Shown here in pieces: positions 7,374 through 32,608 of a stretch of DNA of 64,000 nucleotides; the first letter of the stretch is position 1; each line of letters starts with the position of its first letter. The notes below the pieces were generated by a model. It was not told the origin of the DNA. It searched no databases and saw only the letters and a program-made list of their open reading frames with translations. The translations under genes and the position numbers were made by a program. This stretch comes from an uncultured Spirochaetota bacterium (GTDB lineage: Bacteria; Spirochaetota; Spirochaetia; Treponematales; Rectinemataceae): assembly GCA_903821875.1 (NCBI GenBank), contig CAIJMU010000155.1:1-64000 (forward strand), given 5' to 3'.

Positions 7374-7719
7374 TCTTGGACCCTCGCCTCCCCTCTGCGT
7401 CATTTTTCAAGGGATCATGCAGATTCTACACCATCCGGGGCTGGTTCCGCTGGCTTGAAAGCTAGCGGTAGGCTGTGGAGAGAACACATCCCCTCATATG
7501 AACACATGCTCATATGTTCATATGAAGGGATGTGCCAGCGCCAAGACACCAGCCTGACGCAGGAACACGATGGCACATGATGCGTCCACCCTGCCTTGGG
7601 TGCAAGCTGGCGAAACCTCGTTCGATGCCCTCCACTGGGTGGCTGAAAGATGACCCCCGAAAGCTTGGTAAATATCCCTTTTTGCGCCAAAGCCCTCAGG
7701 GCCAGCCCCTCGCCTTTGT
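7374..7719. other. Intergenic region upstream of the SNF2 gene
   Basis: About 350 bp lie between divergent genes. The main content is a 50-bp inverted repeat centred near 7510. ORFs on both strands run through it only because it is palindromic, and their peptides look random. I see no RNA gene and no convincing promoter. Confidence 0.5.
7485..7534. repeat. 50-bp palindrome with CATATG core units, possible operator
   Basis: Arms of 20 bp (CACATCCCCTCATATGAACA and its complement, one mismatch) flank a 10-bp spacer. Inside lie three CATATG units and an overlapping 10-2-10 palindrome CATATGAACA-CA-TGCTCATATG. This resembles the ATATGAACA-type operators bound by ArsR/SmtB metal sensors, but no such regulator is encoded in this window. 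A mobile-element end is the alternative. Confidence 0.6.
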
Positions 7720-7947
7720 TTGTCCCGAATCGATACGAAGAAGCGTGTGACGATCCGCGGCGCCCGCTTTGACCATTATCACGTCCAAGAGTTTCTCGAT
7801 GGAAGGATTGTTCTCGAACCGCGCGAGCTTGTTGTACCCTTCGAACTGTCTGCACTGACCATGTCAATGATGGACTCGAGCATGCAGAATCTCGATGATG
7901 GTAAGGTCTCAGAGCCCCTCGATCTTACAGCTTTCAACAATGAGTAA
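7720..7947 (+). CDS. Small AbrB/Phd-like antitoxin-type protein, orphan, possibly decayed
   Basis: This 75-aa protein starts SRIDTKKRVTIRG, which resembles the swapped-hairpin AbrB fold, continues DGRIVLEP, and ends GKVSEPLDL, a tail seen in several small antitoxin-like proteins. The only in-frame start is TTG at 7720 without a ribosome site, and the frame is open upstream to 7672 with no ATG or GTG. No toxin-like gene follows before the end of clpC 50 bp later. It therefore looks like an orphan or a remnant that lost its start. The family assignment is tentative. Confidence 0.45.
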   Translation: MSRIDTKKRVTIRGARFDHYHVQEFLDGRIVLEPRELVVPFELSALTMSMMDSSMQNLDDGKVSEPLDLTAFNNE

Positions 7948-7986
7948 GCGCCTATCTCCATGTTTGTCATTCGACGGAGAGCGCTG

Positions 7987-7999
7987 GGGGTCTGACCTC
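7987..7999. repeat. GGGGTCTGACC-type palindromic element, degenerate copy
   Basis: GGGGTCTGACCTC abuts the clpC stop codon. It matches the GGGGTCTGACCCC element found four more times at 29.6-32.3 kb, with one 3' mismatch. Confidence 0.5.
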
Positions 8000-10535
8000 A
8001 CTGGCGCACGATAGCCCTTCCCTTTTGGCTGCCAGCATCCTTGGTAATTGCTTCTTTCGCGGAAGTCCCCTTCACCCCGAGCTGGATCCTGTCCTTCACC
8101 ACCCTCACCGCTACGACAGCTCCGACCCCGACCCGGGCCTCGAGGATCATGCCTGCAAGCGGATCCTCGATTTCGGCCTGCAAGAGCCGCCGCATGGGGC
8201 GCGCACCGTAGGCGGGGTTGTAGCCGTGAGCGACAAGCCACTGTCGGCCTGTCCGGCCTACCGACAGAGTGATGCCCCGCGCTCCGAGCCGTCGTCCCAA
8301 CTCTGACAATTCGAGGTCGAGGATCCTGCCGACCTCGGCACGGTCCAGCGGCCTGAAGACGACAGTGTCGTCGAGGCGGTTGATGAATTCGGGGTTGAAT
8401 TTGCGCTTGAGCTCCGACAGGGCGGCCGAGCGTACTTCGGGGTAGGAAAGGAGGCGCTCCTCGGCGTGGAAGCCCAGGCCGCCGATGGCGATCTCCCGGG
8501 CCCCGGCATTGCTCGTCATGATGATGACGCAGTTGCGGAAAGACACCGCGTGGCCGAGGCTGTCGCGGAGTTCGCCCTCCTCGAGGAGCTGGAGGAGGAT
8601 GTTGAAGACCTCGGGGTGGGCCTTCTCGATCTCGTCGAAAAGCACCACGGCGTAGGGTCTCCGCCTGATGCGTTCGGTGAGCATGCCGCCCTCGTCGTAG
8701 CCGACATATCCGGGGGGGGCTCCGACCAGACGCGCAGCATTGTGACGTTCCATGAAATCGGACATGTCGATGCGGACAAGGGCATCCTCGCTGCCGAAGA
8801 GGTACTCGGCCAGGGTCTTGGCGACCAGGGTCTTTCCGACACCGGTCGGCCCGAGGAACATGAAGGAACCCAGGGGCCGGCGCCCGTTCGAGACGCCGGC
8901 CCGCGAGCGCCTGATGGCCGAGGCGACGACACGGATGGCCTCGTCCTGTCCTATGACCCGACGGTGCATCTCGTCCTCGATATGGATGAGTCGCTCCGAT
9001 TCGCTTTCGGCGAGGCGCCCGAGGGGTATGCCCGTCGACTCCGACAGGACATGGAAGAGGTCTTCCTCGGTGACAGGCTGGGTCGCCGTGCCCCCTCCAT
9101 CGATCCAGGCGCTTCGTATGGCCTCAAGCCTCGCCTTGAGTATGCGCACGCGGTCGCGGATCTCGGCGGCCTTCTCGTAGTTCTGCGTGGAAACGAGGGC
9201 GAGCTTCTCTTCGGTAAGGCGGCCGATCTCGGCCTCGATCTGGGCCAATTCGGGGGGACGCTTCGGACTGGCAAGCTTCCTGTAGGCTCCGGCCTCGTCA
9301 AGGAGGTCGATGGCCTTGTCGGGAAGCCGGCGCTCGGGGACATAGCGCTGGGAAAGCTCGACGGCGGCGTCGAGGGCGGGGCGCGAGTAGCGTACGCCGT
9401 GGAAATCCTCATATTTGGTCTTGATTCCCTCGAGGATGGTCCGGCTCTCGGCGCCGTTGGGTTCGCCCACGACGATGAGCTGGAAGCGCCTCTCGAGGGC
9501 CGCGTCCTTTTCGAGGTACTTGCGGTACTCGTCCAGGGTGGTGGCGCCGATGCACTGGATCTCGCCGCGCGACAGGGCTGGCTTGAGCATGTTGGATGCG
9601 TCGATGCTGCCCTCGGCGCCACCGGCTCCGATGACCGTGTGCAGTTCATCGATAAAGAGGATGACGTTCCCCGCCTGGGCTATCTCCTTCATGATGCGCT
9701 TCAGGCGCTCCTCGAACTCGCCCCGGTACTTCGTGCCCGCCACGATGGAGGGCAGGTCGAGGGACAGGAGGCGCTTGCGTGCCAGGCCGTCGGGCACGTC
9801 GCCCCTCGCGAGCCTCAGCGCGAGGCCCTCGACGATGGCTGTCTTCCCCACTCCCGGTTCGCCCACGAGGACGGGGTTGTTCTTCCCGCGCCGCGAAAGG
9901 ATTCTAATAACTCTGTCAATCTCCACGGAGCGGCCAATGACCGGATCGAGGCGGCCCTCGCGGGCCTGGACGCCGAGGTCGCGGGAGTGTTCCTCAAGGA
10001 GGGGGGTCTTCGCGGGGAAGGCCTTGCCCTGGTGGCCAGCCTGTTGCGCCAAGGCTCCCTGGTGCTGGGCCGGTTCCGGTGCAGGACGCGGGTTCAGGCC
10101 CTCGCGGTACAGGCTGATGGCACGGCGCAGGCCCTCGACCGAAAGACCGCCCTGTGAACAGTGGACCGAGAGGCTGCTACCCTGCTCGCGGGCTGCCGCG
10201 AGGAAGAGGTGCTCGGTACCTATGTACTCGGAATTGGAATGACTGGCCTCTTCGGCAGCCGACTCAAGGAGGCTCCTGCTTCTCCGCGACAGGGGGATGT
10301 CCCCGGGGATGAAATTGCCCTGCCTGCGCTCGAGCTCGCGTTCGATGGCGCGGGAAAGTGCGGTGATGTCGATGCGGAGTGAACGGAGGATGGTGACGGC
10401 GCCGCTGTCCGCATCGGCGAGGATGGCGAGGATGACATGCTCGGGAAGGACCTGCTCGGCATGGTAGCGGCGTGCCTCCTCCTGACAGCCATGGGTGAGC
10501 ATCTTCTGCGCCCTCGAGGTCAGCCCCTTGAACAT
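7998..10535 (-). CDS. clpC: ClpC AAA+ unfoldase, ATPase subunit of Clp protease
   Basis: ClpC unfolds substrates and feeds them to ClpP. The 845-aa protein has the full layout: a Clp_N double repeat (1-145), a first AAA module with Walker A GEPGVGKT (225-232), a UVR-type middle segment (EEKLALVSTQNYEKAAEIRD), and a second AAA module with LGPTGVGKTL and a ClpB D2-small-type C-terminus. The short UVR-containing middle domain separates ClpC from ClpB, which has a long coiled coil. It is a lone gene: no ctsR, mcsA or mcsB is adjacent, so control by CtsR-like operons is not supported here. Confidence 0.93.
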   Translation of the reverse strand: MFKGLTSRAQKMLTHGCQEEARRYHAEQVLPEHVILAILADADSGAVTILRSLRIDITALSRAIERELERRQGNFIPGDIPLSRRSRSLLESAAEEASHSNSEYIGTEHLFLAAAREQGSSLSVHCSQGGLSVEGLRRAISLYREGLNPRPAPEPAQHQGALAQQAGHQGKAFPAKTPLLEEHSRDLGVQAREGRLDPVIGRSVEIDRVIRILSRRGKNNPVLVGEPGVGKTAIVEGLALRLARGDVPDGLARKRLLSLDLPSIVAGTKYRGEFEERLKRIMKEIAQAGNVILFIDELHTVIGAGGAEGSIDASNMLKPALSRGEIQCIGATTLDEYRKYLEKDAALERRFQLIVVGEPNGAESRTILEGIKTKYEDFHGVRYSRPALDAAVELSQRYVPERRLPDKAIDLLDEAGAYRKLASPKRPPELAQIEAEIGRLTEEKLALVSTQNYEKAAEIRDRVRILKARLEAIRSAWIDGGGTATQPVTEEDLFHVLSESTGIPLGRLAESESERLIHIEDEMHRRVIGQDEAIRVVASAIRRSRAGVSNGRRPLGSFMFLGPTGVGKTLVAKTLAEYLFGSEDALVRIDMSDFMERHNAARLVGAPPGYVGYDEGGMLTERIRRRPYAVVLFDEIEKAHPEVFNILLQLLEEGELRDSLGHAVSFRNCVIIMTSNAGAREIAIGGLGFHAEERLLSYPEVRSAALSELKRKFNPEFINRLDDTVVFRPLDRAEVGRILDLELSELGRRLGARGITLSVGRTGRQWLVAHGYNPAYGARPMRRLLQAEIEDPLAGMILEARVGVGAVVAVRVVKDRIQLGVKGTSAKEAITKDAGSQKGRAIVRQ

Positions 10536-28834: not shown

Positions 28835-29229
28835 GCAAGAAACTCCTTGGAAACGACGAAGGCAGGAGTCTAGCGGGCCGGCCGGGCTTGTTCAAGCAAT
28901 GAAAGGTCCGCACACATTCAGGGAGACCGTGAAAAAGCGTGCCGGCGGAGGGTCGGCCAGGGTCTGACGAAAGCAACTGGTGACAAACCTTGGAGTATGG
29001 GTCATCGTTTCTGCCAGAACCTCGCCTTCGATCTTGCGTAAACGGACATTGCTGCCTCCCTTCGGTGATGGATCGCGTGTTGGCTATCCACCAACACTGA
29101 GAAGAGTATCCATCCAAATGACCATTATATCTATTATGCTATTTATTCCCCGTTGGGCTTGTATACGCAATGTGGCGGGGTAAGACCCTCAGCCTTGACA
29201 GATCTCTGGAGGAAGAACATCCTTCTCGC
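28835..29229. other. Intergenic region between argS and the retropepsin gene
   Basis: About 395 bp with no credible gene on either strand. It contains a half-site GGTCTGAC (28961-28968) of the palindromic element seen downstream and an A+T-rich stretch at 29117-29150 that could hold a promoter. It marks the upstream edge of the cassette region. Confidence 0.5.
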
Positions 29230-29658
29230 ATGGGATTGATCTATGCTGACCTTGAATTGATCCGCTCCGACGACCTCGCGCTGGTCCGTGGGGGCTACCT
29301 CAGCCCTGAAAAAGTCCGGGGAATCATTGTCCGCGCCTTGGTCGATTCCGGGGCATACCAACTCTGCATCAACGAGAACATCAAGCGACAACTCGACCTT
29401 CCCCATGTCGACACTATCACCGCAGAACTGGCGGATGGCAGGCTTGCCGACCTGGAACTGGTTGGCCCTGTAGAGATACGATTCAAGAACCGGAAAACCG
29501 TCTGCAATGCCGCCGTCCTGCCCGGCGAGACCGAGGTACTCCTTGGCTCTGTTCCGATGGAGGACATGGACCTCGTGCTTTATCCGAAAGAGGAGCGCAT
29601 GGACATCAACCCCGCCACTCCCTATGTCAGCAAGCGAAAGATCAAGTCGGGGGTCTGA
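29230..29658 (+). CDS. Clan AA retropepsin-like aspartic protease
   Basis: The 142-aa protein from ATG 29230 begins MGLIYADLELIRSDD, the usual start of this small bacterial clan AA aspartic-protease family; the GGAGGAAG upstream is 14 nt away, so the start is not certain. The catalytic loop is ALVDSGAYQLCI (D-S-G instead of the commoner D-T-G), followed by AELADGR and AAVLPGETEVLLGSVPMEDMD. A single D-S-G site implies a homodimer, like retroviral proteases. The natural substrate is unknown. The stop codon lies inside a GGGGTCTGACCCC element, which adds the residues KSGV. Confidence 0.83.
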   Translation: MGLIYADLELIRSDDLALVRGGYLSPEKVRGIIVRALVDSGAYQLCINENIKRQLDLPHVDTITAELADGRLADLELVGPVEIRFKNRKTVCNAAVLPGETEVLLGSVPMEDMDLVLYPKEERMDINPATPYVSKRKIKSGV

Positions 29659-29662
29659 CCCC
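29649..29662. repeat. GGGGTCTGACCCC palindromic element, copy 1
   Basis: A 13-bp palindrome with one central asymmetry is followed by CCAAG-type bases (GGGGTCTGACCCCAAG). It supplies the TGA stop of the retropepsin gene at 29656-29658. Confidence 0.75.
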
Positions 29663-29703
29663 AAGTTTCCCTGGCTTGTCCTTCCCGGAAGCCCGACGGA
29701 AAA

Positions 29704-29873
29704 TCAAAGTCCTTCGATCTCCTTCTGGCTTAGCCCAGTCGCCTTTTCGATGATATCCACCGTCACTCCTAGCTGCATGAAATTCCGTGCCGCCTCGCGC
29801 TTCCCCTCGCGTTCACCCTCAAGCTTCCCCTCGCGTTCACCCTCGGCACGGGCTTCCTCGATGACGAGCCCTC
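29704..29873 (-). pseudogene. C-terminal tail of an Rpn-type PD-(D/E)XK nuclease/transposase
   Basis: About 55 codons remain: EEARAEGEREGKLEGEREGK, a charged repeat helix, then ARNFMQLGVTVDIIEKATGLSQKEIEGL, which is how recombination-promoting nuclease (Rpn/PD-(D/E)XK transposase family) proteins end. The nuclease domain is absent: the fragment begins immediately after palindromic element copy 2. It is a relic. Confidence 0.65.
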
Positions 29874-29886
29874 GGGGTCTGACCCC
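29874..29886. repeat. GGGGTCTGACCCC palindromic element, copy 2
   Basis: An exact 13-bp copy, again followed by AAG, separates the Rpn tail from the Lgt-like pseudogene. Confidence 0.78.
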
Positions 29887-29909
29887 AAGACGAGCGTGGC
29901 TGCAGAAAC

Positions 29910-30561
29910 TCAAGTCGTCCGGGGAGCCGATGGTTTTTCGATCCCTGATCTCCGCTTTTTCATCGCTGCGTAGAGGTCGCGAGGCAGGAGATACAGCAGC
30001 AGTATCCCGAGGGTGGCCCACTGAAAGCCGCTCAGTCCCCAGAGATCCTTCGGCGTAACCCTGATGAATTCGATCGTAAAGCGAAAAATGCAAAAAGCGT
30101 AGAGAAAGCGCTTGAAAAGGTCCCCCTCCTCGTGCACGTTCCTGCGTGAGGCACCAAAGCCAGACGAAAAGGCCGAAGTCGAAAACAGCCGAGTAAAGCT
30201 GGGTCGGGTGCCGCGGTAGACCATCCCCGAAATCGCAGGCCCAGGGAAGCGAGCTCGCGATGCCGTGGCAGCAGCCGTTCAAGAAGCAGCCAATCCGCCC
30301 GAATGCGAGGCCGATGGCCAGGGCAGGGGCGAAGGGATCGCCTGTGCGTCGCTTCATGTCCATGACCCTCTTGGCAAGCTCGATCGCGAGCCAGCCGCCG
30401 AGAAGTCCGCCCACGATGGTCTTGCCGGAGAATATCAGTATTGGGAAGGATTTCAGAAAGCTGCCATCCCAAGGCGGGCCATGCGCTGAAGGCCAGACGA
30501 TAAGGGGCAGTTTCATCCCGACGAGGCTGCCGAGGAGGCTCGCCGCCATGAGGGCGAGGAG
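29910..30561 (-). pseudogene. Prolipoprotein diacylglyceryl transferase-like gene, frameshifted
   Basis: The Lgt-like pattern is clear: GSFLKSFPILIFSGKTIVGG, then LAIGLAFGRIGCFLNGCCHG (the Lgt GRIG-F-NG signature) and GLPRHPTQLYSAVFDFGLFVW. Near 30120 the frame breaks. The rest of the protein, DLFKRFLYAFCIFRFTIEFIR, GLSGFQWATLGILLLYLLPRDL, continues in another minus-strand frame to 29910. One or two bases have been gained or lost, unless this is a sequencing error. The 5' end runs in frame from a permease fragment, so the gene has no start of its own. It is probably a secondary Lgt relative rather than the essential enzyme. Confidence 0.75.
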
Positions 30562-31173
30562 GCGGCGAGAGAGGATCTTCGAGAGGAGGATCAGGCTCGG
30601 GAGGCTGATTCCCGCCGCCGCTGCCATGAAGGCGAAAACTATGCCCTGGTTGAGTCCTTTCTCGAGCAGGGCATAACCGATAGGCAGTATTACGATGACA
30701 TCCGCGTATATGAGGGCGCCGACGAGGGTGGCCAGGAGCACCGCGAGCACGTTGTTGTTCCAGCCGAGTGAGGTGACCCATTCCACGGGGAGCCAGGTCT
30801 TGATACCGGCGCCAACGGCCGCAGCAAGGACCAAGACGGGAAGGAAATGCAGCAAGGCGCCAAGTGAGCGCAGCAGCTCTTTTCTTGCTTTCATTCCAGC
30901 TCCTGCGACCTGGCGGTCTTCCGGCCCTTGAGCTGCGATGAGGTCGGCAAAGGCGGGGTTCACGTGATCCCTTAGGCGGAGGCGGCCGAAAGCGAAGCCC
31001 AGGAGCACGGCGACCGTAAAACAGGAGGCGAGGTACAACAGCGCGGTCTTGCTCCCGAAGAGGGAAAGAAGCAGGACGAAGGCGGCGATGTTCATGGTGG
31101 GCGAGGAAACCAGAAAGGAAATCGCCGGTCCGAGGGCGACATCGCCCGAGATGAGGGCTGCGAAGATGATCCA
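30534..31173 (-). pseudogene. Truncated permease (DUF318/UPF0718 type) fused to the Lgt-like gene
   Basis: The segment begins abruptly at WIIFAALISGDVALGPAISF right at palindromic element copy 3, with the N-terminal half of the permease missing. Multiple membrane helices follow (FLVSSPTMNIAAFVLLLSLFG; HFLPVLVLAAAVGAGIKTWL; LIYADVIVILPIGYALLEKG; GIVFAFMAAAAGISLPSLIL). The frame then runs without a stop into the Lgt-like sequence around LLALMAASLLGSLVGMKLP. No start codon or ribosome site is evident. A deletion fusing two membrane-protein genes is the simplest explanation. Confidence 0.65.
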
Positions 31174-31188
31174 GTCTGACCCTTGGGG
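31173..31188. repeat. GGGGTCTGACCCC-type element, copy 3 (degenerate)
   Basis: AGTCTGACCCTTGGGG keeps the GTCTGACCC half and the TTGGGG (reverse of CCCCAA), but the left GGGG has drifted. It lies 4 bp from the RNA ligase stop and marks the truncation point of the permease fragment. Confidence 0.55.
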
Positions 31189-31192
31189 CTGG

Positions 31193-32263
31193 TCACTCCC
31201 CTCCCTTGAGCAGGAAGCGGTTGCTGACCTTCTTGAACGACAGCGACTGATCCTTGGCGCGTACGACAATACCCTCCCCCTCCTGATCCTTGCGCGCCTC
31301 CGGGAAGACCTCGCGGTAGGGGTACTCCGACAATGCAAAAAGCTCCTGGTTTGAAAAGGCGAATGAATCGCCTTCTCGGAGGATGGGTACGGTACGCAGG
31401 CCATTGACAGCACACAAGCTGCGCATCGCATCGAGGTCCAGGAGGCGATGGCCTTCAATCTCAACAATTGTGAATACAAAGAAGCTGGCTTCGGAAAGGC
31501 CGAGCTTGTTGCCCTGGATGCCAGGTCCACACAGTTCGCCCTGGATGGCAAGGCATGTTCCGGTCGCCGCGAAATGCCGGCGGAGGATCCCTTCGATGTC
31601 GAGCTTTCGCGCAAGGGTCCAGTAGATGTTTCCCGGATCTTCCTCAAGCGAAAGGTTGCGCGAGCAGACATGGAATTCGCAGTCGGCGCCAGGCTTGGCA
31701 GGAAGGTCCAGGATAAAGCTGGCCGATGTTCCGTCGAGTTTGGCGCTTACATACCAAGGCTTGCCTGCCATCTGCGCAAGGAGTTCAGGATCGGATTCAA
31801 GCCGGACCTCATCGGATTTCGCGATCGGCCACGAGAAGTCCCGCGCCTTTCCATCCAGCTGCACGGAAACGGGGGCCTCGTATTTTTCAACATCCAGCGC
31901 ATCGGTAAGGTCCGTTCCTGCGGGGAGGTCCTCGATCGAACCCAGACCGGCAGCTGCTACCCGGGCGGCAAAGCGCGCGATGGGCAGGGCAAGCCCCTGG
32001 GACAGGGCGCCGCGCAGTTTTGCTGTCTTGAGTCTGAAGCATCCCGCCTTTTCGCTCCATGAAGACTTGCGGAGGAACTCGTATTCGGGCCACTCGGGCA
32101 ACAGCGAGTCTATCTCAAAATAGAGGCACTTATCACCTTCTTTGAACTCGCCCTTTTTTGCAACACAGTACCAGCCCAGGATGCCTACACGCTCGATGGC
32201 GTCCGCCCCTTCGATGGGAAGGATCTCACGGATACCCTGAATGCTCGCCAGTTTTCGTGGCAT
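31193..32263 (-). CDS. ATP-dependent RNA ligase, DRB0094/Rnl5-like family
   Basis: The 356-aa protein has an N-terminal OB-like domain of about 150 residues (MPRKLASIQGIREILPIEGADAIERV...GWYCVAKKGEFKEGD) and a nucleotidyltransferase domain with ligase motif I KLDGTSAS (the Lys is adenylylated) near residue 170. IQGELCGPGIQGNK corresponds to motif IIIa, and EGIVVRAKDQSLSFKKVSNRF to motifs IV and V. This is the architecture of the Deinococcus DraRnl type, which seals 3'-OH/5'-P nicks with RNA at the 3' side. The ATG has AGGAGG upstream. It is the only intact gene between element copies 3 and 4. Repair of damaged RNA is the likely role. Confidence 0.85.
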   Translation of the reverse strand: MPRKLASIQGIREILPIEGADAIERVGILGWYCVAKKGEFKEGDKCLYFEIDSLLPEWPEYEFLRKSSWSEKAGCFRLKTAKLRGALSQGLALPIARFAARVAAAGLGSIEDLPAGTDLTDALDVEKYEAPVSVQLDGKARDFSWPIAKSDEVRLESDPELLAQMAGKPWYVSAKLDGTSASFILDLPAKPGADCEFHVCSRNLSLEEDPGNIYWTLARKLDIEGILRRHFAATGTCLAIQGELCGPGIQGNKLGLSEASFFVFTIVEIEGHRLLDLDAMRSLCAVNGLRTVPILREGDSFAFSNQELFALSEYPYREVFPEARKDQEGEGIVVRAKDQSLSFKKVSNRFLLKGGE

Positions 32264-32295
32264 GGGAACCTCCTCTAGATTCGGTCAAACGAGCG

Positions 32296-32308
32296 AGGGT
32301 CAGACCCC
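32296..32308. repeat. GGGGTCTGACCCC-type element, copy 4 (inverted reading)
   Basis: AGGGTCAGACCCC followed by AAG, one mismatch from the palindrome. It contains the stop codon (32300-32302, minus) of the DUF167 gene. Confidence 0.65.
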
Positions 32309-32608
32309 AAGCGCAGCAAGCCTTGCCACGCAGGCAGCCGGCACAGCAACCAGCTTGAGCCGCGCCGTCTGCCCGCCCCTGATCACGATGGCCGACTTCG
32401 GCAACCCAAGCTCCCCGGACAGCCAGGCGACAAGCTCTTCGTTGGCCTTGCCCTTTTCCGGAGCGGCGGCTACGCGCACGAGGAGGGCCGGCCCCCCGGC
32501 AGTGACCCGTATCCCTGCGGCTGCAGTCCGTGAGGCCCCGGGTATTACCTTTATAAGTACGATAATTGTAGTTGGATCTTTTGCATCGGGATGCCAGGGC
32601 TCTTCCAT
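32300..32608 (-). CDS. DUF167/YggU family protein
   Basis: This 102-aa small protein has the family core VLIKVIPGASRTAAAGI, then LLVRVAAAPEKGKANEELVAWLSGELGLPKSAIVIRGGQTARLKLV. The biochemical role of the family is unsettled. It starts 5 bp after the ligA stop, so the two are co-transcribed. The last codon and stop are provided by the palindromic element. Confidence 0.88.
   Translation of the reverse strand: MEEPWHPDAKDPTTIIVLIKVIPGASRTAAAGIRVTAGGPALLVRVAAAPEKGKANEELVAWLSGELGLPKSAIVIRGGQTARLKLVAVPAACVARLAALGV

Follow-up and report, generated by a model that had tools for sequence, protein, structure and literature searches.

The terminal inverted repeats (TIRs) that flank TIRYT genes carry the motif GGGGWSAS (Di Nocera 2013, PMC3733652), restated as GGGG[AT][CG]A[CG] in the work that lists TIRtrons as subclass 2.1 (PMC6006769). 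Some of these TIRs are self-complementary, and they are found as singles, dimers and clusters and, as inverted repeats, flanking Y1 transposase genes. The GTAG-tagged REP, REPIN and BIME repeats are dispersed palindromes of 20-40 bp, single or clustered, which lie mostly downstream of genes and have a GTAG or GTGG foot. CGTC-tagged REPs, described in Spirochaetes among other phyla and without a known dedicated transposase, have a stem that starts AT after the CGTC tag and tails that fit CCA. Integron attC sites, too, are folding sites at gene 3' ends, with toxin-antitoxin genes nearby.

We analysed a window of 64,000 nucleotides from an uncultured Spirochaetota bacterium, in which a preliminary description had seen gene cassettes bounded by copies of a short palindrome. 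We think it somewhat probable that this palindrome forms the core of a TIR/REP-like repeat of about 37 bp, which is dispersed and non-coding and can form a hairpin, and that copies of this repeat now stand as joints. Like TIRtron TIRs, the repeat occurs as singles, dimers and clusters, GGGGTCAG in its core fits GGGGWSAS, and the Y1 transposase genes of this clade are likewise flanked by GGGWCAG. In contrast to those TIRs, the copies in the window genome do not flank the one Y1 gene found as inverted repeats and instead lie at gene-fragment joints, and the full centre, GGGGTCWGACCCC, is absent from the accessible portion of the published motif text. The repeat shares size, dispersal, the mostly downstream position and the single or clustered arrangement with REPs, REPINs and BIMEs, but the part common between genomes is the centre and not the foot; membership of the GTAG class was rejected because, on reading the aligned copies, no GTAG or GTGG foot stands beside the hairpin. 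The outer arm also ends in YGTCA, as in CGTC-tagged REPs, but here a GC-rich stem and core bear no relation to theirs, and that class was rejected on arms of TGACRARCCC and a core of GGGTCWGACCC in place of an AT-starting stem and a CCA tail. Unlike attC cassettes, the arrays here contain broken genes in mixed orientation, and the integron integrase profile TIGR02249 gave 7 partial matches in our search, none over the cut-off and the best without profile positions 181-239. The repeat appears to work like, and probably descends from, TIR/REP-like repeats, with the characters of TIRs present in part.

The repeat unit and its copies in the window

Across the whole genome (4.68 Mb in 193 contigs) there are 62 occurrences of GGGTCWGACCC and 1 of the reversed control; the genome-wide count, which the preliminary description had offered as a refuting test, did not refute it. 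A 1.65-Mb subset takes in all 62 sites, and there the palindrome is the commonest odd one; the next two, at 47 and 45, look like GC-rich coding words. It forms the core of an imperfect palindrome of about 37 bp, TGACRARCCCNNR-GGGTCWGACCC-YNNGGGYTYGTCA, the unit ending 13 bp beyond the 11-bp core on each side. A matching arm, always at the same distance, accompanies about 25 of the 62 core copies, on one side or on both; about 37 have no recognisable arm, and some core matches, by reading, sit in ordinary conserved coding sequence. With an arm-plus-core model, 30 sites score at least 23, compared to 0 in reversed sequence. Folded as single-stranded DNA, near-palindromic copies form strong hairpins (z -4.6 to -8.1), and the window copy at 29862 a poor one (z -0.1). 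A literature search returned nothing on the 13-mer, and for the 11-mer only papers that seem unrelated by title. Within the window, a relaxed motif (at most 2 mismatches) has 5 matches against 3.1 expected, which does not exceed chance; the case for the palindrome is therefore carried by the genome-wide count. The features to which we refer are as follows.

7720-7974, plus strand: fragment with 95% identity to positions 1021-1271 of contig C126; the similarity stops at the element edge
7975-8011, plus strand: element copy, core with one mismatch
28900-32300, no strand: block of about 3.4 kb, found in the window but missing in relative G001; its limit towards argS is approximate
28947-29004, plus strand: possible degenerate half-elements GGGTCTGACG and TGACAAACCTTGGAG, close to where the block ends on the argS side; by themselves not significant
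29170-29658, plus strand: retropepsin-like aspartic protease gene (TIGR03698, PF13650)
29637-29673, minus strand: element copy, core GGGGTCTGACCCC at 29650-29662, only the core kept
29707-29861, minus strand: Rpn C-terminal tail; similar over 29707-29826, the rest up to the element edge assigned by reading
29862-29898, plus strand: element copy with full arm TGACGAGCCCTCGGGGTCTGACCCC, core at 29874
29910-31171, minus strand: ArsP_1 permease plus LGT region, N-terminally truncated and frame-disrupted
31159-31195, minus strand: element copy, arm TGACCAGCCCC kept, core degenerate
31193-32263, minus strand: RNA ligase gene, intact (PF09414, PF21189; TIGR02306 just under the cut-off)
32283-32319, plus strand: element copy, core only, at 32297-32307, at the DUF167 stop codon
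32300-32608, minus strand: DUF167 (YggU) gene, stop codon inside the element core

Four copies had been placed at 29649, 29874, 31173 and 32296. The first two are exact matches to GGGGTCTGACCCC, although the first starts at 29650, and the last has one mismatch. The copy at 31173 lies more than 2 mismatches from the 13-mer but retains its arm and a broken core: at 31172-31195 on the minus strand the score is 18.0, against a maximum of 15.0 in reversed controls. The copy reported beside clpC at 7987 is present with its one mismatch. The half-site proposed at 28961 is not significant by itself; neither it, nor a second at 28981, nor GGGGTAAGACCCT at 29177 rises above control.

As first described, the element supplies stop codons: the core TGA ends the retropepsin gene (29656-29658) and the DUF167 gene (at 32300). 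The RNA ligase gene does end at an element, but not 4 bp away from it as had been thought; its stop codon, 31193-31195, is the first TGA of the arm. At clpC, a TGA stop stands directly before GGTCAGACCCC, and the copy at 7975-8011 separates this stop codon from a piece of a gene that has a duplicate on contig C126; the open reading frame of this piece has no Pfam match. Both truncations noted earlier were also recovered: the permease begins at ArsP_1 profile position 72, its N-terminus missing at the 31173 copy, and of the Rpn gene the short tail at 29707-29826 is all that is left between the first two copies.

Joints at element edges and the 3.4-kb block

When the flanks of element copies were compared by BLAST with the 1.65-Mb subset, alignments ended where the element begins on either side. 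With the count restricted to flank alignments that cover at least 40 positions and stop 3 bp or less from an element edge, 12 edges at 11 sites were found, against a mean of 1.27 expected and a maximum of 6 in 2000 shifted controls. The weakest of the 11 sites, at position 179 of contig C29, matches neighbouring element copies on its own contig. Flank similarity to C29 and C72 breaks at the window copy 29862, a joint where the Rpn tail meets the permease/LGT gene at its 3' end. Contig C189 holds a 286-bp Rpn fragment with an element at each end. C126 and C50 have the element and the right flank in common, with the left flank changing at the edge; a third copy resembles them in the 36-bp unit alone, the flanks differing on one or both sides. 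Direct and inverted element copies are both seen, and the fragments, in both orientations, are often broken genes. Among the cases checked, none had the same gene continuing across an element; they are therefore joints rather than simple insertions. A clean insertion of the element into an otherwise intact copy was not found, so we only infer that the element itself moves.

In both G001, a member of the same genus, and G005 the genes run ligA, DUF167, argS; DUF167 and argS of G001 are some 80 bp apart. In the window this interval holds the block of about 3.4 kb, which contains the RNA ligase gene, the damaged permease/LGT gene, the Rpn tail and the retropepsin gene. The block starts at the DUF167 stop codon, that is, at the TGA of a core copy, and the copy at 32283-32319 is the DUF167-side end of the inserted block. 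The preliminary description had proposed to look for gain or loss exactly at the palindromes; the single locus that was compared, with a single relative from the same genus, shows a block which is absent there and begins at the palindrome, and so did not refute the idea. Because the short gene order is also present in G005, the evidence favours a gain by the window genome over a loss from G001, though the direction is not certain.

Gene neighbourhoods, relatives and candidate enzymes

The proposed enrichment at gene 3' ends was also seen: 29% of palindromes lie 40 bp or less from a called gene 3' end, compared to 7% of random positions, with rough gene calls and some inflation from the TGA inside the element. 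The figures are 40% against 6% in G023 and 50% against 4% in G009 (ten sites each), and G054 has no excess near gene 3' ends. Families beside the copies include Rpn (PDDEXK_2, YhgA-like), DUF2442, UPF0175, PIN, HEPN, BrnT, a reverse transcriptase domain and FGE-sulfatase or Lcl_C. Rpn proteins are reported in one study to be anti-phage toxin-antitoxin systems (PMC10327210), and for this reason the element islands look like defence-rich variable regions. Because several of the copies follow FGE or Lcl_C genes, target hairpins of the type seen in diversity-generating retroelements (DGRs) were also considered. By eye, locus L033 (contig C50, 9501-12420) is DGR-like, with an FGE-type gene, a reverse transcriptase reading frame and a repeat resembling the FGE 3' end; the FGE domain alone was tested. 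At L054 (C162, 2335-3215), a BrnT toxin gene ends at an element and is followed by a short RlaP fragment; taken with the RNA ligase in the window, this hints that genes for RNA repair lie near elements. Two further repeats were observed. One is a second palindromic repeat in the same islands, CATCCCCTCATATGAACA...TGTTCATATGAGGGGATG (window 7488-7537; contigs C126, C13, C4, C92 and C115). The other is a 30-bp repeat, GCGAAGCCTAGCGAGCGAAGCGAGCGTTAA, that sits cleanly inside an Rpn gene in comparison with the C126 copy, at about 345-375 of L185 (C182) and about 910-940 of L035 (C189).

The 13-mer is present in 15 of 393 genomes sampled from the phylum, with 126 copies in G054, 23 in the window genome, 8 in G045, 7 in G258 and 5 in G400; the 11-mer has 104 copies in G023 and 44 in G009. 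The centre is constant among relatives and the arms differ, being by reading approximately AAATTTAAANTTNG-core in G023 and AGTCAANNTTG-core in G009. Core clusters in G054 (contigs C7, C55, C127, C146 and C202) are spaced at 28-29 or 39 bp, a difference of about one helical turn. The strict arm-plus-core pattern had 0 matches in viral contigs; among genome contigs it was seen once, in a Gemmatimonadetes MAG (L079, 4240-4263).

In the surroundings of 20 Y1 matches in relatives, GGGWCAG reaches 2.07 per kb; farther away its density is 0.60 per kb, and the reversed control has 0.12. The form at the Y1 transposase gene of G010 is GGGGACAGACCCC, and in G015 the Y1 stop codon abuts GGGGTCTGACCCC. The window genome has a single Y1 transposase gene, on contig C57 and just below the NCBIfam cut-off, with one GGGACAGAC nearby and no GGGTCWGACCC-family palindrome beside it in an assembly that is 97% complete. 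Core-rich G009 and G054 (estimated completeness 88% and 95%) gave no Y1 match, and no candidate enzyme common to all palindrome-rich genomes was found. The associated transposase that the preliminary description proposed to look for was thus not recovered: no integrase passed the cut-off, and no copy flanks the C57 gene.

A proposed mechanism and its alternatives

Copies of the repeat may have been spread by a single-strand HUH transposase (Y1/TnpA-REP-like), which would nick at the element edge and join that edge to a different single strand. If one element were cut and its end ligated somewhere else, unrelated fragments would come to lie on either side of it with the element precisely at their border, and recombination between copies through their hairpins could add further joints. 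As the outer arm begins with TGA (TGAY) and the core holds a TGA, copies supply stop codons and would be tolerated at gene 3' ends.

It is unlikely, though plausible, that these are ordinary REP-like repeats at 3' ends in islands of decaying genes, where the joints are unrelated deletions and the elements passive. The neighbourhoods contain Rpn, toxin-antitoxin (DUF2442, UPF0175, PIN, HEPN, BrnT), reverse transcriptase and FGE/Lcl_C genes, many of them broken, Rpn copies also have deletions without an element at the break, and other palindromic repeats occupy the same places. However, break points are about nine times commoner at element edges than at shifted positions, and one fragment has an element at both ends. 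Since the genome is fragmented into 193 contigs and several copies lie near contig ends, assembly errors at the repeat would be a natural worry. The exact repeats that run through the core, however, measure 14-19 nt at most of the joints tested and never more than 29 nt, and paralogous flanks are mostly 71-97% identical, not 100%, which makes such errors unlikely as a general cause; the window block, moreover, is internal to a contig of at least 64 kb and has conserved genes to its left and right, and we regard this explanation as extremely unlikely.

An integron-like cassette system, with the palindromes as sites for a site-specific recombinase, would account for folding sites at gene 3' ends, the toxin-antitoxin gene content and the gene-sized spacing seen in the window and, by position only, in G023 and G009, where contigs C25, C45 and C60 have copies close together. 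Fragments of broken genes in both orientations, direct together with inverted copies and the lack of an integron integrase over the cut-off make it very unlikely. The earlier proposal of recombination joints therefore stands in part: joints at gene 3' ends are supported, with copies of neighbouring sequence stopping at element edges, and a dedicated cassette system with its own recombinase is not supported. That the elements belong to the Rpn (PD-(D/E)XK) genes, as gene ends or cutting sites, is suggested by Rpn fragments repeatedly abutting elements, by 14 PDDEXK_2 matches in the window genome and by a MITE family tied to YhgA genes proposed in Thiomargarita (PMC4853749). Yet G009 and G023 are core-rich without a PDDEXK_2 match, for which reason Rpn was rejected as mobiliser, and Rpn copies lack a constant unit at the ends of their flanks; we hold this link to be highly improbable. 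A more far-reaching reading, in our judgement doubtful, is that the conserved 13-bp centre with its genome-specific arms is the site of a putative enzyme, linked here to neither the Y1 transposase nor the Rpn genes, that cuts and rejoins gene pieces in several relatives. If that were true, arrays of defence genes and fragments would be built and eroded at the palindromes.

REP-like repeats are usually regarded as passive passengers. The unusual feature of the hairpin repeat described here is that its copies lie exactly where pieces of different genes are joined, and it may be a mark or a cause of the shuffling. With element edges that match fragment joints within a few bases, the role of such a repeat in building and breaking gene arrays, among them arrays of toxin-antitoxin and Rpn genes, becomes testable. 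Its sporadic occurrence (15 of 393 genomes, 126 copies in one), constant centre and changing arms raise the question of which enzyme reads the centre.
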